Source: Natrinema sp. SYSU A 869
GTDB taxonomy: Archaea; Halobacteriota; Halobacteria; Halobacteriales; Natrialbaceae
Direction: 5' to 3'
DNA: 64,000 bases
NCBI RefSeq assembly: GCF_019879105.1
Contig: NZ_CP082247.1
Span: 248,001 to 312,000, forward strand
The position numbers were made by a program, and so were the translations under genes. Below are positions 32,675 to 56,666 of this stretch, piece by piece (position 1 is the stretch's first letter; every line of letters starts with the position of its first letter). Under the pieces are notes generated by a model that saw only the letters and a list, made by a program, of their open reading frames with translations, ran no database searches and was not told where the DNA came from.

Positions 32675-33784
32675 TTACTCGGCCGCACAGCGGTTAGGGC
32701 CCAGTTCGAGCTCGGACAGTTCTTCGTCGGGGACGTCCTCCTGCCCGACGTTCGTACGCTTGACGCGCTCGAAGTTCGGTGGATGGTCCGGGATGTCCGA
32801 GGCGAGCGTCTCGATGAACTCCTCGCGGTCACGCCCGAGGTCCTCGTTTCGTTCTTTGACGTCACCGAGTGTCGCAATCACCGGTGGCTCGGGTGATCCG
32901 GGGTCGTGTGCCGGGAGGACGACCGCATCGTCTGGACGGTCCAGCAGGCGCTGGAGGCTCTCGTAGAGCGTCGCGGCGTTGGCTTCGATGTCGGACTCTT
33001 CGATACCGGCTTCGACGCCGAGTTCGACGCGGCCGACGCTCTCGTGGAAGAGCGTATCGCCCGTGATGAGCGCCTCGCCGTCGACGTCGAACGAGACGCT
33101 GCCATCGCTGTGTCCCGGCGTGTGGATGACCTCGACGTCGACGGTCCCGACTTCGATCCGCTGTCCGTCTTCAGTCGGAGTCGCGTCGATAGCGAGCGCA
33201 TCCTTCGGATGGAGGGTGTATGGAACGTCGTGACGCTCGGCGAGTTCCGCACCACCGGAGACGTGGTCAGCGTGTGCGTGCGTGTCGAAGACACCGATGA
33301 GGTCGGCGTCGTGCTCGTCGAGGATTGCATCGTACTCGTCGAGGTAGTGGGAGGGATCGAACACGGCGGCTTCGCCGTCGGAGATCAGGACGTGCGAGAG
33401 ACAGCCCTTCCCGGGACGGGCGACCTGAACGAGCGTTCCGTCGAGGTCGGTCGGGACGGGGGCGCTCCGGTGAACGCGACTCCACCCGTTCATGCCGTCG
33501 GTGAGCGTCCTGGCGTTGTAGCCCATCTCTCGAAGAAGATCTGTTGCTGTCTGCGAAATGATCCCCGCAGCACAGACAGTGGCGATCTCTTTCACGTCCG
33601 GAAGGTCTTCGAAGGCATCCGTCGCCGTCTCCGGGTCGGCGGACAGTTCGTCGTAGACGTCGACGTTGGTGCTGTCGGGAATGTGCCACTCCTCGTAGTC
33701 GTCCCGGTGGCGGATATCGAGCACGAGTACGTCTTCGTCGTCGCGTAACCGATCACTGAGTTCGGTCGGACTGATTTCCGTCAT
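32675..33784 (-). CDS. Rhodanese / metallo-beta-lactamase fusion (persulfide dioxygenase-like)
   Basis: 369 residues. The N-terminal rhodanese domain (about 1-105) has VLVLDIRHRDDYEEWHIPDS and the active-site loop VCAAGIISQT with its Cys. The MBL domain (about 120-300) has THAHADHVSGG, the metal-binding HxHxDH, then GHSDGSVS and ALITGDTLF. The tail ends LELGPNRCAAE. ETHE1-type enzymes oxidise glutathione- or other persulfides with oxygen to sulfite; the fused rhodanese moves sulfane sulfur. It leads an operon with the MFS transporter and is divergent from the HTH-10 gene at 33874, its likely regulator. Compare the longer homologue at 49214. Confidence 0.88.
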   Translation of the reverse strand: MTEISPTELSDRLRDDEDVLVLDIRHRDDYEEWHIPDSTNVDVYDELSADPETATDAFEDLPDVKEIATVCAAGIISQTATDLLREMGYNARTLTDGMNGWSRVHRSAPVPTDLDGTLVQVARPGKGCLSHVLISDGEAAVFDPSHYLDEYDAILDEHDADLIGVFDTHAHADHVSGGAELAERHDVPYTLHPKDALAIDATPTEDGQRIEVGTVDVEVIHTPGHSDGSVSFDVDGEALITGDTLFHESVGRVELGVEAGIEESDIEANAATLYESLQRLLDRPDDAVVLPAHDPGSPEPPVIATLGDVKERNEDLGRDREEFIETLASDIPDHPPNFERVKRTNVGQEDVPDEELSELELGPNRCAAE

Positions 33785-33873
33785 CGATGTTTGTTCGTAT
33801 GGACGGGACCGGAATAGCAGTGGTGCGGGACATGACCGGCACCGTTAATGAGAACGAGCCCAAACAATGGTGT

Positions 33874-34608
33874 ATGAGTCTGTACGAGGCCTCGTTCCGA
33901 TTGAAGCACGAGTGTCCCTACCGGGAGATCTCGGAACGCTATCCGGTCCTCACTATTCGAGAGTGGTACCTGAGCGACTGTCAGGTGCTCGAGATCACCT
34001 CCGCGGAGGCACCGACCGATGACCTGCTCGAGGAGGTCAACGGGATCGGAACAGTCCTCCACAAGTCGATCGATGATTCGGGACTCCATGTCGTCACCCA
34101 ATCCTGCCTCTGTTCGCTCGAGGAGTCTATCTTGGAGCGGTTCGAGGCGCACAATTGTCTCTACCAGCCCCCGACGATTCACCGTCAGGGCTGGGAGCAT
34201 TATACGGTGATTGCGTTCGACGAAAGCGACGTTCGGGCGCTGGTTCAGGATCTCGAGGCGGATCGGAATATCGAACTGCTTTCCAAGACCGCGATCACGG
34301 AGCAACAAATCCCGCATAGCATGTTGGCGCCGGTCGATCGACTCTTCGAGGACCTTACCGACCGCCAACTGGCAGCGTTACAGTTGGCACTGGAGAACGG
34401 ATACTACGAACAGCCGCGGCAGACGTCGCTTCGAGAACTGGCCTCGCAGACGTCGGTGGCCCGCTCGACCTACGAGGAACACCTCCGGAAGGCGGAGAAC
34501 AAGTTCCTGACGAACGCTGGCACGTATCTGCGATTGGTGATGTCGGGGTCGGCAGCGAATCCGCTGCAAGCGGGTCGGTCGGGAACGTCCGAACAGAGCG
34601 CTGACTGA
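33874..34608 (+). CDS. HTH-10 (bacterio-opsin-activator-like) transcription regulator
   Basis: 244 residues. The N-terminal part YEASFRLKHECPYREISERY is the standard start of these proteins, with the conserved HxCPY. The C-terminal HTH-10 domain reads LTDRQLAALQLALENGYYEQ, TSLRELASQTSVARSTYEEH and LRKAENKF. Homologues begin at this Met, so ATG at 33874 is preferred over in-frame starts at 33787 and 33829. It is divergent from the rhodanese-MBL/MFS operon with 90 bases between starts, so it probably responds to sulfur or redox signals there. The CPY Cys/His could be a sensor; that is inference. Confidence 0.88.
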   Translation: MSLYEASFRLKHECPYREISERYPVLTIREWYLSDCQVLEITSAEAPTDDLLEEVNGIGTVLHKSIDDSGLHVVTQSCLCSLEESILERFEAHNCLYQPPTIHRQGWEHYTVIAFDESDVRALVQDLEADRNIELLSKTAITEQQIPHSMLAPVDRLFEDLTDRQLAALQLALENGYYEQPRQTSLRELASQTSVARSTYEEHLRKAENKFLTNAGTYLRLVMSGSAANPLQAGRSGTSEQSAD

Positions 34609-39440: not shown

Positions 39441-39653
39441 ATGATACTGCATATCGATCCCGCCCAAACCGATCCGGATGACATCGGCGCGAAACAGACG
39501 ACGCTCGAGATGGACCACGAGGACGCGATCGAACACGTTCGCGAGGTGTTCACCGACGCTCGTCAGGAGACTCTGTCAGCAAGACGACCTCGAGAGCGGT
39601 TCGAGGAGAGTGAGAGTAAGAGTGAGAGTGAGTATCGGCTGTTGGATGATTAG
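39441..39653 (+). CDS. Small uncharacterised protein
   Basis: 70 residues, no recognised family. The start MILHIDPAQTDPDDIGAKQT and helix LEMDHEDAIEHVREVFTDAR look coding, but the last 30 residues overlap the 3' end of the convergent HTH gene, so either that overlap or one of the two ends is wrong. Low support. Confidence 0.4.
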   Translation: MILHIDPAQTDPDDIGAKQTTLEMDHEDAIEHVREVFTDARQETLSARRPRERFEESESKSESEYRLLDD

Positions 39654-40056
39654 CTCTGGGGGGGATCTCGGTGTCGGCCTCGACGTGTTCGTACTTGTCC
39701 TCGAACTCCTGGATGAGTTGTCCCATCTTCGCGTACCAGTCGTTCAGCTTTCGCTGCATATCGTTCGCGATCTGGGTCGGGTCCGTCGGGTAGTAGACGT
39801 GATAGTAGCCGCCCTGATCGTAGTTGATTTGCTCTTTCTGGATGAAGCCGCTCTGGAGCAGTCGCTGAATCGATCGGTACGCGGTCGAGCGCTCGCGGTC
39901 GACCCGCTCGGCGACCTCATCGATCGTCAGCGCTTCCTCGCTCTCGACCATCACGCGGAAACAGTCCTTGTCGAGTTGCTTGAGCCCATGGATACACTCG
40001 AGTAGTCCTTCGCATTCCATATCCTGCTGCAGTTGTTCCGACATCGAATTAGGCAT
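39550..40056 (-). CDS. TrmB-like winged-helix regulator
   Basis: 168 residues. A central winged helix: CFRVMVESEEALTIDEVAER then VDRERSTAYRSIQRLLQSGF (recognition helix), followed by a wing with YYHVYYPTDPTQI. A helical tail (QRKLNDWYAKMGQLIQEFED) probably forms the dimer interface. The last 30 residues are of low complexity (HSHSYSHS) and overlap a plus-strand frame. Its upstream region at 40102-40114 has AATATTGTGCAAT, and very similar sites occur in the divergent sulfur promoter near 50.5-50.7 kb. I infer that it controls that locus and itself. Confidence 0.78.
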   Translation of the reverse strand: MPNSMSEQLQQDMECEGLLECIHGLKQLDKDCFRVMVESEEALTIDEVAERVDRERSTAYRSIQRLLQSGFIQKEQINYDQGGYYHVYYPTDPTQIANDMQRKLNDWYAKMGQLIQEFEDKYEHVEADTEIPPRANHPTADTHSHSYSHSPRTALEVVLLTESPDERR

Positions 40057-40632: not shown

Positions 40633-41373
40633 GGCACTGTCTAGTCAACGATTCTGCACCTCCTCAACAGGCGTGCGGTTGTTGAGCGCCTGGTTTGGTC
40701 GCTGGAAATTATAGTAGTAGACGAAGGCGGCGAGCCAGCGCGCAGCGCTGGCTCTGCCGCCCATCCACGTCTGGTGAAATCGGTCGATCCGCATCGCAAG
40801 CGTCTGGAACCACTTTTCGATCAAGTTCCGGTCGACGTAGTCGAGGTGACCGCGTAGATCGCACCGCGCGAGCGCGGTCAAATAGCCCATCCCGTCCACG
40901 AGAAACGTCGTCTCCGAGAAGTCGTGTTTCTCGGCCAGCTGGCCGAGAAACTCGGCGGCTGGGTCCGTTCCTCGCCGTTCTAAGACGACCGCACCGAGCA
41001 GTAGCTTCGTCTCGACGTCGATTGCGGCGTACAGCCAGTGCTGCTCGGTGCCGATTTTCACTGCGGTTTCATCGACCGCGACCCGCGACGGCTCTGCCGT
41101 CGGCGGGTCTGGGACGGTTTCCGCAGTGCGGTGAACCCACTGCCACACCGCCTGATGTGACCGGATCACGCCGAACTGCTCCAGCGCGGCGGCTGTTTCA
41201 CGAAGCGAAATTCCCGTCGAGTGAAGCCGCACCGCGAGCGCCCTCAGAGCGCTCGCGGTGCTCTCGTCGTCCCAACACGCAAGCGGATTCGGCTCCAGAG
41301 AGACGGTAAACAGTTCTTGAGCGGCCATGGCATCCGTCTCTAAGAACTGTCCGCTCTTTGGCTAGACAGTGCC
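40633..41373 (-). mobile_element. IS6-family insertion sequence, copy 1
   Basis: 741 bp with inverted ends GGCACTGTCTAG / CTAGACAGTGCC. It is flanked by an exact 8-bp target duplication GTTGACCG (40625-40632 and 41374-41381), the size expected for IS6. One transposase gene occupies nearly all of it. It is identical in length and, by protein, in sequence to the copy at 55884-56624. Confidence 0.92.
40645..41328 (-). CDS. IS6-family DDE transposase
   Basis: 227 residues, intact. DDE residues: Asp in SRVAVDETAVKI (near 87), Asp in TTFLVDGMGYLTALA (near 144), Glu in RNLIEKWFQTLAMRI (near 170), and a C-terminal FVYYYNFQRPNQALNNRTP typical of the family. An N-terminal helix-turn-helix region precedes. 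Like the ISH3-like transposase, its nucleotide sequence contains perfect hairpins: 40732-40754 (10 bp, 3-base loop), 40863-40878 (6 bp), 40926-40951 (26-bp perfect palindrome), 41086-41102 (7 bp), and 41229-41261 (13 bp). Confidence 0.92.
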   Translation of the reverse strand: MAAQELFTVSLEPNPLACWDDESTASALRALAVRLHSTGISLRETAAALEQFGVIRSHQAVWQWVHRTAETVPDPPTAEPSRVAVDETAVKIGTEQHWLYAAIDVETKLLLGAVVLERRGTDPAAEFLGQLAEKHDFSETTFLVDGMGYLTALARCDLRGHLDYVDRNLIEKWFQTLAMRIDRFHQTWMGGRASAARWLAAFVYYYNFQRPNQALNNRTPVEEVQNR

Positions 41374-41757
41374 GTTGACCGTGATTCGTCGGCGAAGTCG
41401 GCTCAGACAGAAGCGCTTCGATCTACCGGAAGGAGTAGAAGCGTATCGAATCAATTGCCTGAGGTGTGATATCGAGATTCGCCGGCAGGGGACTGCTAAC
41501 TGCCGTGAAGACGCCACTCTGGATGACGGAATCCCGGCACGAACTGCACGGAAGTCGTTCTTGACCCATTGAATTCGATCCACCATTTCGCCTCGGGTGG
41601 GGAACGAGTTCCCGTAAGTTATGGACAGTGTTTTTCCCTTCGTTGGCGGTGAATCCGCCTACCAGGGAGGTACTGAGTTCGGAGACAGTCGACCTATCGA
41701 ACATTATCCGCTGAATAAGGAAAGCGAAGTAGGCGTATCACCATCTCGACGACAACG
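41374..41757. other. Spacer after IS copy 1
   Basis: About 385 bases before the halocyanin gene. A plus-strand frame (VEAYRINCLRCDIEIRRQGT, to 41572) starts at the IS end and may be the rest of a small gene hit by the insertion, but nothing recognisable supports this. Confidence 0.35.
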
Positions 41758-43348: not shown

Positions 43349-43523
43349 TGAGGGGATGGAAACGACTTGTGAACGATTCGTTCCTAGTCCGCTCGTCTCG
43401 AACGAGCCGAGAGTCGGTCGTCGATCTGCGATGAGATCGGTGAAAGGTCTGAACGGACCGACCACCTAGTATTGTTAGATATGTGCAAAACCATTAGTAT
43501 CGCGGAGTCCGTACCTGCGATCG

Positions 43524-43964
43524 ATGAGCGACACTGGCGACGGCGAACGGCAACGGATCCGCGAGCAGAAAAAACGGGAATTGCGCGAACGCCTCGAGAA
43601 CGGATCCGTCTCGGACACATCCGACGTCGGTGGACAGGCTAGCAGTCCGGACGAGCCAATCGATATCGAAGGGAGTGACCACTTCGACGAGGTCATCAAC
43701 GACCACGACGTCGTCCTCGTCGACTGTTATGCCGACTGGTGCGGCCCCTGTCAGATTCTCGAGCCGACGATTGAGACCCTCGCTGCGGAAACAGACGCTG
43801 CGGTAGCGACGGTCGACGTCGACCGCCACCAGCGACTCGCCCAACAGCTGGGCGCTCGTGGCGTCCCGACACTCGTCCTCTATGCCGACGGCGAACCAGT
43901 CGAGCGGATGGTCGGTGCCCAAGACTGCGCAACTCTCGAGAGGCTTGTCGAGCAATACGCGTAA
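43524..43964 (+). CDS. Thioredoxin
   Basis: 146 residues: a charged N-terminal extension of about 50 residues (KKRELRERLENG) followed by a thioredoxin fold. The active site is WCGPC (Cys73 and Cys76) within VDCYADWCGPCQILEP; the cis-Pro loop is ARGVPTLVLY. It reduces protein disulfides in the cytosol. No signal peptide is seen. It sits in a run with DUF1684 and DCC thiol-type proteins, forming a thiol-redox group next to the halocyanin. Confidence 0.93.
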   Translation: MSDTGDGERQRIREQKKRELRERLENGSVSDTSDVGGQASSPDEPIDIEGSDHFDEVINDHDVVLVDCYADWCGPCQILEPTIETLAAETDAAVATVDVDRHQRLAQQLGARGVPTLVLYADGEPVERMVGAQDCATLERLVEQYA

Positions 43965-47014: not shown

Positions 47015-48187
47015 TCAGCTACCCGCGAGTAGCATCGATCCGTAGCCGAGTCCGAACGCAAGAACGAACGATCCGACCCAGGCGACGACGGTGACTCCTA
47101 GCTTTCGGGGGCTGATACCGTTCCCGCCAGCGACCGCGAACCCGCTGCCGACGATGGCACTCACGATTATCTCGTTGAACGAGACCGGCACCCCTAGCAG
47201 GACCGCGGTCTGTGCGATGAGAAACGAGGGGACGAGCGTCGAGATCGATCGGCGCGGCCCCAGCGACGCGTACTCCTGGGAGATCGACTTGATCATCCGG
47301 GGTGCACTCGTCCAGGAGCCGACGAGGATCCCGACACCGCCGCCGAGCAGGACCGCGATCGGCGACACCGTCGGCAGATCCTCGAGCAGCGGGAACAGCG
47401 GCCCGACGGCTAGCCCGACCTGACTCGCTCCCGCCGAGAAAGCCACGAGCGCCCCGAGTGATAGCAGGAACCGTCGCAGTCCGCCAGCCTGATCACGCCT
47501 GACATCCCAGCGGACGATGGCCGCGGTGAGCGCCCCGAACCCGAGCGAGATCGCGATCGTTGCGATGGCACCGTCGACGGAAACCAGAGTGGTCCCGGCA
47601 GCGGCGAGCGTTCCCCCGATCGATGAGAGAAACACAAACTCGAGATTCGCGACGACGGTGCCGACGATTCCAGCGAGTATTGGAATGCTGACGTCTTCGG
47701 GAACGTCTGGTCGCGGAAGGACGCTCGCGATTCCGTAGGCGATGCCCCCGCCGACGAACGGCGTGAGCACCCAGACTGCGCCGATTTCGGCGTACTTCTC
47801 CCAGGCTGGATCGCCGCCGAGTGCGAAGCCGACGCCGATGACCGATCCAGTCACGGTGAACGCGGTCGCGATCGGATACCCGGTGTAGATGCCGATCGTC
47901 ATCAGTCCGGCGCCGATCAGCAAGACGACGATGACACCGACAACCGGGAGGCTGATTCCCTCGACGAGGCCGTTGCCGACGGCTTCGGAGACGTTCCCAC
48001 CCTGGGTCACTGCACCGGCGAAGCCGAGAATTCCAACGAAAAACGCTGCACGCATCGTCGGAATCGCGTTCGCGCCGACGGCTGGTGCGAAGGGCGTCGC
48101 GCCGCTCGAGCCGGCACCGATCACCCAGGCCATGAACAGGCTCGCGACGGCAGCGGTGGCGAATAGTAGTATCGTTGTGGGTTCCAT
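47015..48187 (-). CDS. PiT-family inorganic anion permease
   Basis: 390 residues with about ten transmembrane helices. The two PiT repeats are seen as VGANAIPTMRAAFFVGILGF near the N-terminus (in place of the canonical GANDVAN) and VSFNEIIVSAIVGSGFAVAG in the C-terminal half. PiT members move phosphate; the Bacillus CysP branch moves sulfate. Position at the end of the rhodanese-MBL/YeeE operon, 45 bases from the preceding gene, makes a sulfur oxyanion a likely substrate. Exact specificity cannot be told from sequence. Confidence 0.85.
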   Translation of the reverse strand: MEPTTILLFATAAVASLFMAWVIGAGSSGATPFAPAVGANAIPTMRAAFFVGILGFAGAVTQGGNVSEAVGNGLVEGISLPVVGVIVVLLIGAGLMTIGIYTGYPIATAFTVTGSVIGVGFALGGDPAWEKYAEIGAVWVLTPFVGGGIAYGIASVLPRPDVPEDVSIPILAGIVGTVVANLEFVFLSSIGGTLAAAGTTLVSVDGAIATIAISLGFGALTAAIVRWDVRRDQAGGLRRFLLSLGALVAFSAGASQVGLAVGPLFPLLEDLPTVSPIAVLLGGGVGILVGSWTSAPRMIKSISQEYASLGPRRSISTLVPSFLIAQTAVLLGVPVSFNEIIVSAIVGSGFAVAGGNGISPRKLGVTVVAWVGSFVLAFGLGYGSMLLAGS

Positions 48188-48232
48188 TAGTGTCTGAAAA
48201 GCTGTGTCACAGTTTTTGAAATTCGAGCGGCG

Positions 48233-48694
48233 TTAGTCGGCACCTGCCGGTGCAGTTTCGGCCGCGGTGCGCTTGCTACGCCAGACCCCCTGCAGGTAGG
48301 CGCCGGCGAACATGCCAACGAGCGCCCACAGGATGGTGACGTTCCCGATCCCGAGGCTGGCGTAGGCCGCACCGGGGCAGATCCCCGACAGACCCCAGCC
48401 GACGCCGAAGATCCCGCCGCCGATCAGGACGTTTCGGTCGAACGGCTTTAGCCGACGACCGTACACGTCGCCCGTCAGCGGTGCGATATCGCGTATCCGG
48501 GGCATGACCGCGAAGGCAATTCCGGAGACGATCGCGGCGCCGAACATGACGAACGGCAGGCCGAAGTCGTCGAACTGGAGGAAGTCCAGTACGACTTCCG
48601 GCCGGGCCATGTGGCTATAGGCGAGGCCGAAGCCGAAGATGAGGCCGCCGAGGAGGATCAGCGGCATGAACAGGGGATGACGATTTCTACTCAT
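48233..48694 (-). CDS. YeeE/YedE-type membrane protein, DUF6691 half
   Basis: 153 residues with about four helices (MPLILLGGLIFGFGLAYSHM, FVMFGAAIVSGIAFAVMP, LIGGGIFGVGWGLSGICPGA, ILWALVGMFAGAYLQGVW). The GICPGAAYAS motif holds the conserved Cys. It pairs with the upstream half-protein at 48696: together they match one full YeeE/YedE transporter, as the PmpA/PmpB pair does. Such proteins import thiosulfate or related sulfane-sulfur compounds through a Cys relay. It starts one base after the preceding stop. Confidence 0.9.
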   Translation of the reverse strand: MSRNRHPLFMPLILLGGLIFGFGLAYSHMARPEVVLDFLQFDDFGLPFVMFGAAIVSGIAFAVMPRIRDIAPLTGDVYGRRLKPFDRNVLIGGGIFGVGWGLSGICPGAAYASLGIGNVTILWALVGMFAGAYLQGVWRSKRTAAETAPAGAD

Positions 48695-48695
48695 C

Positions 48696-49208
48696 TTACG
48701 GACTCACCCCCATGGTCTGCACGAACTGGGCAGTCACGATCGCGACCGTCAGGAACGTGATCACGCCGACGATCGACGTCCGGGAGGCCGAGCCGACGCC
48801 GCAGACGCCGTGGCCCGACGTACAGCCCTTCCCGATGCGCGTCCCGATCCCGACGAGGACGCCGCCGAGCAGCAGTCGCCAGGGCTGGACGTCCGTCGTC
48901 CACGCTCCGCCTTGCCAGACGACGGCGTAGACCGCCCCTCCCAGGATGATTCCCAGCGTGAACACGACGCGCCAGTCCCGGGAGGCACGGTACTGCTTGA
49001 ACCGCGACTGATCCGAGACGTACGACAGCGTCGACTCGAGGAACGTGCTCGCGCCCGCGGCGATTCCCGTCCCAAGGTAGATGACGACCGCGCCGAGGCC
49101 GACGAGCAGTCCACCGATAGCGTACCGGGAGATTCCGTTTGGAAACGGCTCGGCGGGCACTACCTGGCCCAAGGCGACGAGTTCGGCGAGCATTGCGATT
49201 TCGATCAC
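48696..49208 (-). CDS. YeeE/YedE-type membrane protein, first half
   Basis: 170 residues with about four helices. The signature GIGTRIGKGCTSGHGVCGVG holds two conserved Cys residues of the YeeE/YedE family. It lies between the rhodanese-MBL gene (5 bases away) and the DUF6691 gene, in a tightly packed four-gene operon. Proposed role: take up thiosulfate or a related sulfur species and hand it to cytosolic sulfur carriers such as TusA. Confidence 0.92.
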   Translation of the reverse strand: MIEIAMLAELVALGQVVPAEPFPNGISRYAIGGLLVGLGAVVIYLGTGIAAGASTFLESTLSYVSDQSRFKQYRASRDWRVVFTLGIILGGAVYAVVWQGGAWTTDVQPWRLLLGGVLVGIGTRIGKGCTSGHGVCGVGSASRTSIVGVITFLTVAIVTAQFVQTMGVSP

Positions 49209-49213
49209 AGTGA

Positions 49214-50455
49214 TTAGTCACCCGCCAGCGATTCCTGGCTGGCCGCGCAGTTGTTCGGGCCGAGCTCGAGTTCGAACGCTTCCTCGTCGTCGGCCGCCTG
49301 CTGCCCGAGGTTCGTGGGAATGATGTCCTCGTAGTTGGCCGGACGGGGCGGCATGTCCGAGAGGATCAGCTCGACGAACTCGTCTTCGTCCATCGTCAGG
49401 GCATCCATCTCTTCCTTGAGCTGGCCGATCGGTGCCGTGTAGGTGCCGTCGTTGGCGGGCTCGGCGGCGTCGCTGAAGTGAGCGCCGCCGATGAGCGTGT
49501 CGTTGGGCAGGGTTAGCACGCGCTCCTGCAGCGTCTCGTAGAGCTGTCGCGCGGCGTCTTCCGCGCCCTCGTCGCCCTCCTCTAAGTCGGGGCGGGCGAC
49601 GCTCTCGACGAACAGCCCGTCACCCGTTGCCAGCAGTTCGCCGTCGATCAGGTACGAGGTCATCCCGGAGGTGTGACCGGGCGTGTAGACGGTCTCAATG
49701 GTGGCGTCACCGACTTCGAACTCGTCGCCATCCGCTGCGAGAGTCATCTCGTCGGCGTAAGTGACGCCGCGGTCGACCGCCGCCTCGGGGATGACGCCGT
49801 CGACGCCCTCGTTGTCGAGCGCACGAACCCCCGAGATGTGATCCGCGTGGACGTGCGTGTCAATTGCGTACTGGAGGTCTGCACCGACCTCGTCGGCGTC
49901 CTGCCGAGCTTGCGAGGCAGGGCTCGCGGAACCCAGTTCCGCGGTGTCCTCGAGGTATCTAGCGGTGAACGCGCGCAGCGGGTCGATCACGGCCGCCTCG
50001 CCGCCGTCGACGATGAGGTAGCCGAGACAGCCACTCGAGGGACGCTGGTACTGGTAGAGCGTCCCGCTCCCGTCGTAGCGCTCGACTTCGACGCGCTCAT
50101 AGATACGCGCCCAGCCGTTCATCCCGTCCTCGAGGTGATCGACGTCGTAGCCCCGCTCTTTCAGCGTCGCGGCGACGTATTCGCTGGAGCTGCCCTTCGC
50201 ACAGAGGGTTGTAATTTCGCGGTCGTCGGGAATCTGTGCAAGAACGTCGTCGTCAACTTCGTCGTCCAGGAACTCGAAGTACGGGATGTTGATTGATTCG
50301 ACAGTCTCACCGTCGATTTTCCACTCGTCGTACTCCGATTCCATGCGGGTATCGAGGAGCGTGACGTCCTCGCCCGCGTCGATTCGGTCCTTCAGCTCGT
50401 CTGGGCTGACTGATTCGATCTCGACGTCCGGCATTGGAAGATCCATGTCGTCCAT
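49214..50455 (-). CDS. Rhodanese / metallo-beta-lactamase fusion (persulfide dioxygenase-like)
   Basis: 413 residues. Rhodanese domain: VTLLDTRMESEYDEWKIDGE, with the catalytic Cys in TTLCAKGSSSEY (near residue 85). MBL domain: DTHVHADHISGVRAL (near 205), then TPGHTSGMTSYLIDGELLAT and GGAHFSDA. It ends LELGPNNCAASQE. Compared with the homologue at 32675 it has a longer insertion between the domains (AELGSASPASQARQDADEVG). It heads the operon with two YeeE/YedE halves and the PiT permease, so persulfide or thiosulfate sulfur could be imported, transferred and oxidised together. It is divergent from TusA with operator-like repeats between. Confidence 0.9.
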   Translation of the reverse strand: MDDMDLPMPDVEIESVSPDELKDRIDAGEDVTLLDTRMESEYDEWKIDGETVESINIPYFEFLDDEVDDDVLAQIPDDREITTLCAKGSSSEYVAATLKERGYDVDHLEDGMNGWARIYERVEVERYDGSGTLYQYQRPSSGCLGYLIVDGGEAAVIDPLRAFTARYLEDTAELGSASPASQARQDADEVGADLQYAIDTHVHADHISGVRALDNEGVDGVIPEAAVDRGVTYADEMTLAADGDEFEVGDATIETVYTPGHTSGMTSYLIDGELLATGDGLFVESVARPDLEEGDEGAEDAARQLYETLQERVLTLPNDTLIGGAHFSDAAEPANDGTYTAPIGQLKEEMDALTMDEDEFVELILSDMPPRPANYEDIIPTNLGQQAADDEEAFELELGPNNCAASQESLAGD

Positions 50456-50510
50456 GTTGTACAGTTCCCAATATCGGCTACTGGCACTTAAGGGTTTGTG
50501 TAGTATTTCC

Positions 50511-50524
50511 TATTGCACACAATA
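50511..50524. promoter_or_regulatory. Operator-like inverted repeat, site B
   Basis: TATTGCACACAATA, a near-perfect inverted repeat with a 4-base centre, 56-69 bases before the start of the rhodanese-MBL gene (50455). Related to the site upstream of the TrmB-like gene. Confidence 0.5.
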
Positions 50525-50620
50525 CAGGCTCGATCAAATTCAGCTATAAACCTTGTTATACGCGCATATGGGCGATATAAACTAGTTATTTGGACTCAGA
50601 AGGAGAAGGAGATGTTTGTG

Positions 50621-50634
50621 TATTGCACAATAAT
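50621..50634. promoter_or_regulatory. Operator-like inverted repeat, site C
   Basis: TATTGCACAATAAT contains ATTG-CA-CAAT. It matches the complement of the site at 40102-40114 in 12 of 13 bases and lies about 65-80 bases before the TusA start. Confidence 0.55.
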
Positions 50635-50657
50635 AGATAGCCTTTTATGAGAGCGAG

Positions 50658-50670
50658 CAATATTGTGTGA
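50658..50670. promoter_or_regulatory. Operator-like half site D
   Basis: CAATATTGTGTGA shares AATATTGTG with the site at 40102-40114. It lies 30-42 bases before the TusA start, where it would overlap the promoter. Confidence 0.4.
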
Positions 50671-50699
50671 TAGCTCCAATACAGAGCACAAAACAAACC

Positions 50700-50945
50700 A
50701 TGAGTTCAGAATACCAGACCACGGAGACGCTGGACGTGAAAGGACAGTCTTGCCCGATGCCCATCGTGAAGACCAAGCAAGCGATCGACGATCTCGAGGC
50801 CGGCGATGTTCTCGAGGTCGTCGCGACGGACTCGGGCAGCATGAGCGATATCCAAGGGTGGGCCGAAGGCACCAATGGTGTCGAACTCCTCGAGCAGGTC
50901 GAGGACGGCGATCTCTACACCCACTACGTGAAGAAGACGAAATAA
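50700..50945 (+). CDS. tusA: TusA-like sulfur carrier protein
   Basis: 81 residues, one SirA/TusA domain. SCPMPIVKTKQAIDDLE holds the active-site Cys (residue 18) and the CPxP motif. The rest (EVVATDSGSMSDIQGWAEGT) is typical. TusA carries persulfide sulfur between enzymes. ATG at 50700 is used because the family starts just before the first strand; the frame is open 11 codons further upstream. The stop codon overlaps the start of the DsrE-like gene (TAATG at 50943-50947), so both are co-translated. Confidence 0.92.
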   Translation: MSSEYQTTETLDVKGQSCPMPIVKTKQAIDDLEAGDVLEVVATDSGSMSDIQGWAEGTNGVELLEQVEDGDLYTHYVKKTK

Positions 50946-51535
50946 TGAGCACGGACAACCAAACGACGTCAGTCGACGACACCGATCCCGAGACCGACGC
51001 CGCCGAGCTGCAGGCGCTGCGCGAGCGCGTCGAGGAACTTGAAGCGTCGATCGCAGCGGGAGACACGAGCGACGATCAGAAGAAGATGACCATCGTCGCG
51101 ACGCAGGGCAGCTTCGACATGGCGTACCCGCCGTTGATCCTCGCGAGCACGGCGGCCGCCTTCGGCTGGGATGTCGTCGTCTTCCACACGTTCTGGGGAC
51201 TCGACATCCTCCACGAGGAAAAGTCGAAGGACCTCAAGCTGAGCGCCGTCGGCAACCCAAACATGCCGGTCCCGAACGCCATCGCTGCACTCCCCGGCAT
51301 GGACACGATGGCCACGAAGATGATGCAGAAGAAAATCGACGACAACGGGACTGCCACCATCGAGGAGTTGATCGACCTCTCGCTCGAGAGCGGCGTCGAC
51401 CTGCAGGCGTGCCAGATGACGATCGAGTTGATGGACTACGACAAGGACGACTTCCACGACGGTGTCACCACCGGCGTCGGAGCGGCCACCGCGCTACAAC
51501 ACATGGCCGAATCCGACATTCAGCTTCTGGTCTAG
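50945..51535 (+). CDS. DsrE-family (DsrE2-like) sulfur-transfer protein
   Basis: 196 residues. An acidic N-terminal extension with a coiled-coil stretch (ELQALRERVEELEASIAAGD) is followed by the DsrE/DsrF-like domain: MTIVATQGSFDMAYPPLILA, VVVFHTFWGLDIL, and GVDLQACQMTIELM with the conserved Cys. The family binds sulfane sulfur and works with TusA and rhodanese in sulfur relay. Overlap with tusA shows an operon. The divergent YeeE/rhodanese-MBL operon completes the module. Confidence 0.92.
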   Translation: MSTDNQTTSVDDTDPETDAAELQALRERVEELEASIAAGDTSDDQKKMTIVATQGSFDMAYPPLILASTAAAFGWDVVVFHTFWGLDILHEEKSKDLKLSAVGNPNMPVPNAIAALPGMDTMATKMMQKKIDDNGTATIEELIDLSLESGVDLQACQMTIELMDYDKDDFHDGVTTGVGAATALQHMAESDIQLLV

Positions 51536-51537
51536 TC

Positions 51538-51735
51538 ATGAACAACACCAGGTCCACGCTCTCGAAGCCGAGCCTACGCATCCTCGAGGATATCACTGAC
51601 ACAGAAGACATCTCCCCGGCTGATCTCGAGCAGTCGCTCAACGACATCGTGGACCCCACTGCGCTGAATCAGTTGTTCGAACCGACCGCTACTGACGACT
51701 CTGCCCGAGCGGGTGCGTTTCGTTCACGTGTCTAG
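51538..51735 (+). CDS. HalOD1-like fragment
   Basis: 65 residues. RILEDITDTEDISPADLEQS followed by LNDIVDPTALNQLFEPTATD matches the first half of the HalOD1 output domain (compare the complete one at 60447: PLYEYIDPDALNTLF). The second half, with the closing strands, is missing. It starts 2 bases after the DsrE stop. It may be a decayed gene or a short regulatory protein. Confidence 0.55.
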   Translation: MNNTRSTLSKPSLRILEDITDTEDISPADLEQSLNDIVDPTALNQLFEPTATDDSARAGAFRSRV

Positions 51736-55883: not shown

Positions 55884-56624
55884 GGCACTGTCTAGTCAAC
55901 GATTCTGCACCTCCTCAACAGGCGTGCGGTTGTTGAGCGCCTGGTTTGGTCGCTGGAAATTATAGTAGTAGACGAAGGCGGCGAGCCAGCGCGCAGCGCT
56001 GGCTCTGCCGCCCATCCACGTCTGGTGAAATCGGTCGATCCGCATCGCAAGCGTCTGGAACCACTTTTCGATCAAGTTCCGGTCGACGTAGTCGAGGTGA
56101 CCGCGTAGATCGCACCGCGCGAGCGCGGTCAAATAGCCCATCCCGTCCACGAGAAACGTCGTCTCCGAGAAGTCGTGTTTCTCGGCCAGCTGGCCGAGAA
56201 ACTCGGCGGCTGGGTCCGTTCCTCGCCGTTCTAAGACGACCGCACCGAGCAGTAGCTTCGTCTCGACGTCGATTGCGGCGTACAGCCAGTGCTGCTCGGT
56301 GCCGATTTTCACTGCGGTTTCATCGACCGCGACCCGCGACGGCTCTGCCGTCGGCGGGTCTGGGACGGTTTCCGCAGTGCGGTGAACCCACTGCCACACC
56401 GCCTGATGTGACCGGATCACGCCGAACTGCTCCAGCGCGGCGGCTGTTTCACGAAGCGAAATTCCCGTCGAGTGAAGCCGCACCGCGAGCGCCCTCAGAG
56501 CGCTCGCGGTGCTCTCGTCGTCCCAACACGCAAGCGGATTCGGCTCCAGAGAGACGGTAAACAGTTCTTGAGCGGCCATGGCATCCGTCTCTAAGAACTG
56601 TCCGCTCTTTGGCTAGACAGTGCC
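55884..56624 (-). mobile_element. IS6-family insertion sequence, copy 2
   Basis: 741 bp, same ends and orientation as the copy at 40633-41373 and offset by exactly 15251 bases throughout. Unlike copy 1 it has no target duplication: the 8 bases before it are ACATGAAT, those after it GGCGATGC. That suggests it arrived by, or later took part in, a rearrangement. Confidence 0.92.
55896..56579 (-). CDS. IS6-family DDE transposase
   Basis: 227 residues, identical to the protein at 40645-41328. The same intragenic hairpins occur at +15251 positions, for example the 26-bp palindrome at 56177-56202 and the 13-bp stem at 56480-56512. See copy 1 for catalytic motifs. Confidence 0.92.
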   Translation of the reverse strand: MAAQELFTVSLEPNPLACWDDESTASALRALAVRLHSTGISLRETAAALEQFGVIRSHQAVWQWVHRTAETVPDPPTAEPSRVAVDETAVKIGTEQHWLYAAIDVETKLLLGAVVLERRGTDPAAEFLGQLAEKHDFSETTFLVDGMGYLTALARCDLRGHLDYVDRNLIEKWFQTLAMRIDRFHQTWMGGRASAARWLAAFVYYYNFQRPNQALNNRTPVEEVQNR

Positions 56625-56666
56625 GGCGATGCCTAACTATCAGAAGTGCGACGGCATCGTCTCGAT

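Follow-up and report, generated by a model that had tools for sequence, protein, structure and literature searches.

A predicted haloarchaeal module for sulfane-sulfur import and oxidation, with its PiT-fold permease and candidate operator

The window analysed here is a stretch of 64,000 nucleotides (nt) from Natrinema sp. SYSU A 869 (contig NZ_CP082247.1, positions 248,001 to 312,000 of the forward strand), whose haloarchaeal genome comprises 5.67 Mb. Between positions 47,015 and 51,535 it carries six genes that are read in this work as a predicted module for the import and oxidation of sulfane sulfur. Four of them form a minus-strand operon running from 50455 to 47015, in the order rhodanese-metallo-beta-lactamase (rhodanese-MBL), YeeE/YedE C-terminal half (YedE C-half), YeeE/YedE N-terminal half (YedE N-half) and PiT-fold permease, with gaps of 5, 1 and 45 nt; tusA and dsrE2 lie on the plus strand, divergent from this operon. 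An earlier note on this DNA had described four packed genes facing a TusA-DsrE operon: all six genes are in place, and the layout recurs across haloarchaeal genera. The features of the module are the following:

49214-50455, minus strand: fusion of an N-terminal rhodanese and a C-terminal metallo-beta-lactamase (PF00581 and PF00753), predicted persulfide dioxygenase (PDO)
48696-49208, minus strand: YeeE/YedE C-terminal half, PmpA-type (PF04143 positions 207-305)
48233-48694, minus strand: YeeE/YedE N-terminal half, PmpB-type, DUF6691 (PF20398; PF04143 positions 15-111)
47015-48187, minus strand: PiT-fold permease from a haloarchaeal clade that is linked to the module and has no GANDVANA signatures (PF01384, 156 bits)
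50700-50945, plus strand: TusA sulfur carrier (PF01206, 76.5 bits)
50945-51535, plus strand: DsrE2 sulfur carrier (PF13686, 170 bits)
50661-50681, no strand: predicted operator, inverted repeat TATTG-N11-CAATA, 18 nt from the tusA ATG
50511-50526, no strand: another palindrome of the TATTG type, located in the shared promoter region towards rhodanese-MBL

The six genes and their conservation

The start of tusA is best set at the ATG at 50700, which gives a protein of 81 amino acids (aa), the typical ortholog length, and its stop overlaps the ATG of dsrE2 by one base. DsrE2 also reaches 170 bits on the NCBIfam model NF047629 (cut-off 210). Genome contigs were scanned with the YedE C-half, and the best 80 of 352 relatives were kept as anchored loci. 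Within 4 kb of the C-half, the N-half was found in 79/80 of these loci, rhodanese-MBL in 75/80, tusA and dsrE2 in 70/80 each and the PiT gene in 44/80. The arrangement is not due to chance, since many haloarchaeal genera have the genes in this same order and with the same divergence. Five YedE pairs, from Natronorubrum and a Natrialbaceae metagenome-assembled genome (loci L054, L063, L064, L068 and L069), stand without rhodanese-MBL or the rest of the module; near three of them lies a gene labelled from its sequence as glutaredoxin-like.

The two YedE proteins align to the N- and C-terminal parts of PF04143, respectively, as expected for a half-size pair. PmpB and PmpA are described as two halves of YeeE (PMC11582611). 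According to PMC10812762, the bacterial YedE1E2 pair imports zero-valent sulfur and does not export it, each half requires its cysteine, and pdo occurs in 177/212 bacterial strains with the pair (a survey of bacterial genomes only); a full-length YedE3, tested in parallel, did not import zero-valent sulfur. The haloarchaeal genes have in common with YedE1E2/PmpAB the side-by-side half-size genes, the persulfide dioxygenase and a conserved cysteine in each half, C106 of the N-half being invariant (80/80), as are C129 and C136 of the C-half (81/81). They differ in belonging to haloarchaea, in having two invariant cysteines in the C-half, in the added PiT gene and in the divergent tusA-dsrE2. The split pair is the counterpart of PmpAB/YedE1E2, a tested importer of zero-valent sulfur often found with a persulfide dioxygenase, which leads to a working model of sulfane-sulfur import followed by oxidation to sulfite. 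As regards solved structures, the C-half aligns by profile with the corresponding half of S. thermophila YeeE (8k1r/6leo), at its GGCNIGH segment; PDB sequence searches with the single halves gave nothing useful, with no match for the N-half. In the two carriers, C18 of TusA (71/71) and C155 of DsrE2 (70/70) are invariant.

The nearest solved relatives of the MBL domain are persulfide dioxygenases and PDO-rhodanese fusions (3tp9, 2gcu, 8zbd, 5ve3 and 4chl; E 1e-19 to 1e-17). C85 of the rhodanese domain is invariant in the 75/75 rows with a letter there, and the MBL ligands H201, H203, D205, H206, H261, D279 and H326 (HxHxDH, H, D, H) are invariant in 75/75 rows each. PDO-rhodanese fusions such as 3tp9, BpPRF (5ve3) and 3r2u have both domains and a similar MBL core, but the domain order is reversed, the rhodanese coming first here and its match being C-terminal in 3tp9. 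The bigR operon, composed of BigR, Blh (DUF442-ETHE1) and a TauE-related sulfite transporter (PMC5823870), likewise combines an N-terminal sulfur transferase with an ETHE1-type MBL and an anion permease alongside. However, the transferase of the haloarchaeal protein is a true rhodanese (PF00581) and not DUF442, PiT stands in place of, or alongside, TauE, and no BigR-type (ArsR-type) gene was seen among the operon genes read.

The earlier note had proposed a module for sulfur import, relay and oxidation. This interpretation is supported in part: the conserved gene content and the invariant residues speak for a sulfane-sulfur module; as to the thiosulfate-like cargo then suggested, zero-valent sulfur appears to be the better guess, because YedE1E2 pairs import it and the tested YedE3 does not (PMC10812762).

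The PiT-fold permease

The linkage of the permease was surveyed in 145 haloarchaeal genomes, with 129 listed PiT places and 110 listed rhodanese-MBL places entered, so that the counts hold among the matches listed. At 67% identity or more, 60/63 PiT matches sit 148-2067 nt downstream of rhodanese-MBL on the same strand; the linked fraction is 3/8 at 63-66% identity and 0/58 below 63%, and a linked PiT is present in 62/101 genomes with a rhodanese-MBL entry. The link to rhodanese-MBL is real and this PiT belongs to the sulfur module, as the earlier note had suggested; the lack of co-occurrence elsewhere, which the note named as speaking against it, was not observed.

The module PiT shares with the PiT/SLC20 phosphate transporters and with CysP the PF01384 fold family and its two repeats, but both GANDVANA signatures and most of the phosphate-critical residues of PiT/SLC20 are replaced. 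Where the solved T. maritima PiT (6l85) has its two GAND and its two STTH motifs, the module protein has other residues. In human PiT2, residues D28, E55, S113, H502, D506 and S593 are described as critical for phosphate transport (PMC3126765); their equivalents here are S27, G55, A107, A252, Q256 and S336, each identical in 44 or 45/45 aligned rows with a letter, and S336, corresponding to S593, is the only one retained of the six mapped. Most of these changes are shared by two PiT paralogues of the source genome (L087 and L089), so the loss of phosphate-critical residues predates the module. This clade, annotated as phosphate transporters, probably carries something else. In the source genome, seven matches to the PiT family were found (L085, L086, L088 and L090 among them), which represent two or more kinds, and the closest plasmid-record match of the PiT gene is from Haloterrigena turkmenica (91%).

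With regard to cargo and direction, the most sensible guess is the export of sulfite or thiosulfate, by analogy with TauE in the bigR operon (PMC5823870). The permease would not be a simple swap for TauE, since TauE and PiT co-occur, and its role as a plain TauE replacement was rejected. The CysP-like character assigned to it earlier was also given up: on the CysP model NF053884 (cut-off 400) the module PiT scores 53.8 bits against 146-154 bits for other PiTs of the source genome, two of which outscore it.

The predicted operator, its candidate sensor and neighbouring genes

The intergenic gap between tusA and rhodanese-MBL measures 229-304 nt in 71 regions, the window included. All 71 have the inverted repeat TATTG-N11-CAATA at a distance of 14-25 nt from the start of tusA, 61 of them exactly and the others with one mismatch; mononucleotide shuffles, which preserve base composition and not dinucleotides, gave 1.1 on average and never more than 4, and reversed and re-spaced patterns, used below, are the stricter control. 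Among 224 windows of 21 columns, none is as conserved as the repeat (0.92, compared with 0.58 elsewhere), and the remainder of the intergenic region shows about 47% pairwise identity. On the other side, 69/71 regions have TATTGY no further than 95 nt from the start of rhodanese-MBL, the usual distance being 69 nt. From the position of a TATA-like CTTTTAT (50642-50648) before tusA, the expected transcription start of this gene falls inside the inverted repeat, which suggests that the predicted operator acts by repression.

The flanks of the loci contain 32 further exact copies; five alternative inverted-repeat patterns gave 0-2 copies each, and changed spacings gave 0-1. The genes beside them, assigned by reading the adjacent open reading frames (ORFs), with families verified on examples, are 16 universal-stress, 3 second rhodanese and 2 SQR-like genes (about 275 nt away), 1 thioredoxin alone, 1 TusA paralogue, 2 DUF1684 and 2 instances of one membrane protein, 5 being unassigned. 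Across the 145 genomes, 418 operator sites were counted against 55 for the control pattern read backwards, and at least one site was present in 134 genomes against 38. A sample of 30 sites, one per genome, included 11 beside tusA/dsrE2/rhodanese-MBL and 5 beside universal stress genes; further neighbours were SQR-like, rhodanese, TusA-paralogue, cytochrome bd and peroxiredoxin genes (the last two by Pfam), and 9 sites had no nameable sulfur link, one membrane protein among them. The recurrence before stress and sulfur genes, together with the excess of sites over the control, leads to the prediction of a haloarchaeal sulfane-sulfur regulon under a shared operator. Among genomes G041, G059 and G114, one has an operator copy some 170 nt ahead of an ORF (L109) that matches cytochrome bd subunit I, and the other two have similar sites. 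Cytochrome bd resists sulfide.

Outside the six genes, the window contains several features of possible relevance to this regulation or to sulfur metabolism:

39550-40056, minus strand: candidate sensor, a TrmB-family regulator carrying cysteines near its N-terminus (PF01978)
43524-43964, plus strand: thioredoxin (PF00085), with a one-mismatch operator copy ahead of the gene at 43470-43490
32675-33784, minus strand: second, shorter rhodanese-MBL protein (PF00753, PF00581)
33787-34608: HVO_A0563/HTH_10 regulator, divergent from the second rhodanese-MBL gene
51538-51735, plus strand: HalOD1-like short ORF of 65 aa, 2 nt after dsrE2 (PF18545, 38.7 bits, partial)

The candidate favoured as sensor is the TrmB-family protein with its cysteines. 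Homologues were found in 33 fetched loci, with C15 and C21 present in 34/34 rows and C32 in 32/34. With 132 of the listed TrmB places entered, the gene lies within 25 kb of rhodanese-MBL in 66/101 genomes among the matches listed, on the same strand in 60, and by a rough estimate from genome length one or two genomes would be expected. OxsR (HVO_2970) of Haloferax volcanii, described as a thiol-switch TrmB protein with a conserved C24 and a CG-rich motif (PMC9426492), is by this description also a small single-domain TrmB protein with an N-terminal cysteine; the present protein differs from it in having three cysteines against the one reported as conserved, and the operator is AT-rich against the CG-rich motif of OxsR.

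The genes around the module were catalogued within 10 kb in 63 loci with full flanks, by clustering of flanking ORFs and tblastn. TauE was found in 30 of these loci, SQR-like genes in 17, CoA-disulfide-reductase-like genes in 15, thioredoxin in 36 and TrmB in 32. None of the NCBIfam matches of the neighbour genes passes its cut-off; that of the SQR-like gene is best to the type III SQR model (330.8 bits, cut-off 525). A count of second rhodanese-MBL genes in 45/63 loci was dropped, because the same query also matches the first rhodanese-MBL, and the 10 loci obtained by ORF clustering were retained. The suggestion of a stand-alone haloarchaeal module is therefore to be modified: the module is widespread in haloarchaea, as the suggestion implied, but SQR, TauE and thioredoxin genes are often found within 10 kb of it and its operator recurs elsewhere in the genomes. 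The earlier remark that sox and dsr core enzymes are absent concerned the window; for the genome, a search for SoxY gave no match, but it gave none in the control genomes either.

An ORF similar to the HalOD1-like one occurs at the same place in 15 loci. In addition, two direct, nearly identical insertion sequence (IS) copies of about 740 bp with a DDE_Tnp_IS240-type transposase lie at 40633-41378 and 55884-56629; the 15.25-kb segment that they bound contains the entire module and may move as one unit.

Proposed mechanism and alternative explanations

The module is an archaeal version of a known bacterial sulfur-oxidation arrangement, its fresh parts being the PiT clade and the predicted regulon. 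We consider it probable that it constitutes a haloarchaeal system for the import and oxidation of sulfane (zero-valent) sulfur, with both operons switched together through one operator. What the comparison shows is the gene content, its conserved order, the invariant catalytic residues, the linkage of PiT and the conservation of the operator; the enzyme activities, the cargo and direction of both transporters and the identity of the regulator in the following scheme are what we infer. The two YedE halves would form one membrane importer whose cysteines relay sulfur to one another and so bring it into the cytoplasm, where TusA and DsrE2 would carry it as persulfide and hand it on. The N-terminal rhodanese domain would load sulfur onto a small thiol, or remove it from one, and the iron MBL domain fused to it would use oxygen to convert the persulfide into sulfite. 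Sulfite, thiosulfate or sulfate would be the sulfur anion moved by the PiT-fold permease, in all likelihood out of the cell. TATTG-N11-CAATA, which overlaps the expected tusA transcription start, would switch the two operons together, with the TrmB-family protein as the favoured candidate sensor.

Several results weigh against this scheme. None of the six module proteins reaches the cut-off of an NCBIfam model, and the structure predictions of the PiT protein and the YedE N-half are poor (mean pLDDT 61.0 and 50.7, respectively). PiT is absent from 36/80 YedE-anchored loci, and TauE lies near 21/36 PiT-bearing and 9/27 PiT-less loci with full flanks. Finally, no convincing type III SQR is present in the source genome (26% identity at best), and its 5 exact operator sites compare with 3 control sites, so that its regulon is not resolvable by the motif alone.

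The same import genes could serve assimilation or the supply of sulfur to tRNA and cofactors, with thiosulfate or sulfane sulfur entering through the YedE pair, thiolation supplied by TusA and DsrE2, and rhodanese-MBL clearing the excess only. TusA is a known sulfur hub, which speaks for this explanation. So does the E. coli assimilation route formed by the full-length YeeE/TsuA and the TusA-like TsuB (PMC11073785, PMC11582611), although zero-valent sulfur uptake was raised by the split YedE1E2 and not by the tested full-length YedE3 (PMC10812762). An oxygenase-type MBL in 75/80 loci, SQR-like and TauE genes among the neighbours, and an operator that also stands ahead of stress and cytochrome bd genes make an assimilatory role unlikely. 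With respect to the permease, membership of PF01384 and the annotation as 'inorganic phosphate transporter' in plasmid records would fit an ordinary phosphate transporter lying beside the operon by chance; given that the linkage separates close from distant homologues (60/63 against 0/58 among the matches listed) and that five of the six mapped PiT2 critical residues have conserved replacements, the S593 equivalent being kept (PMC3126765), this is unlikely. It is also improbable that PiT is a CysP-type importer supplying the pathway with sulfate or thiosulfate: Bacillus CysP is indeed a PiT-family sulfate permease, as its NCBIfam family name states, but the CysP model scores far higher for other PiTs of the source genome, and sulfate import would be senseless next to a sulfite-producing enzyme.

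On the regulatory side, there is an even chance that the operator is read by another regulator, such as the HVO_A0563/HTH_10 protein (33787-34608) encoded next to the second rhodanese-MBL gene, or an OxsR-like factor. The TrmB protein is found in 141/145 genomes (E 1e-30), so its presence alone does not discriminate, and the four genomes that lack it have 3, 0, 1 and 0 operator sites, a comparison of four genomes only; its proximity to rhodanese-MBL and its invariant cysteines argue on the side of TrmB. The fuller proposal, a TrmB persulfide sensor that reads at TATTG-N11-CAATA a dedicated regulon comprising the split-YedE importer, a rhodanese-first PDO, TusA-DsrE2, universal stress protein, cytochrome bd and a sulfur-anion PiT that gave up phosphate, is conceivable though somewhat doubtful.

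No description of the module or of the operator in haloarchaea was found in the literature searched, subscription papers not being covered. If the proposed import and oxidation system is true, bacterial YedE1E2/PDO sulfur detoxification extends to a whole archaeal class, and haloarchaea gain a testable sulfide/persulfide regulon. Furthermore, a PiT-fold clade is now named among proteins annotated as phosphate transporters.

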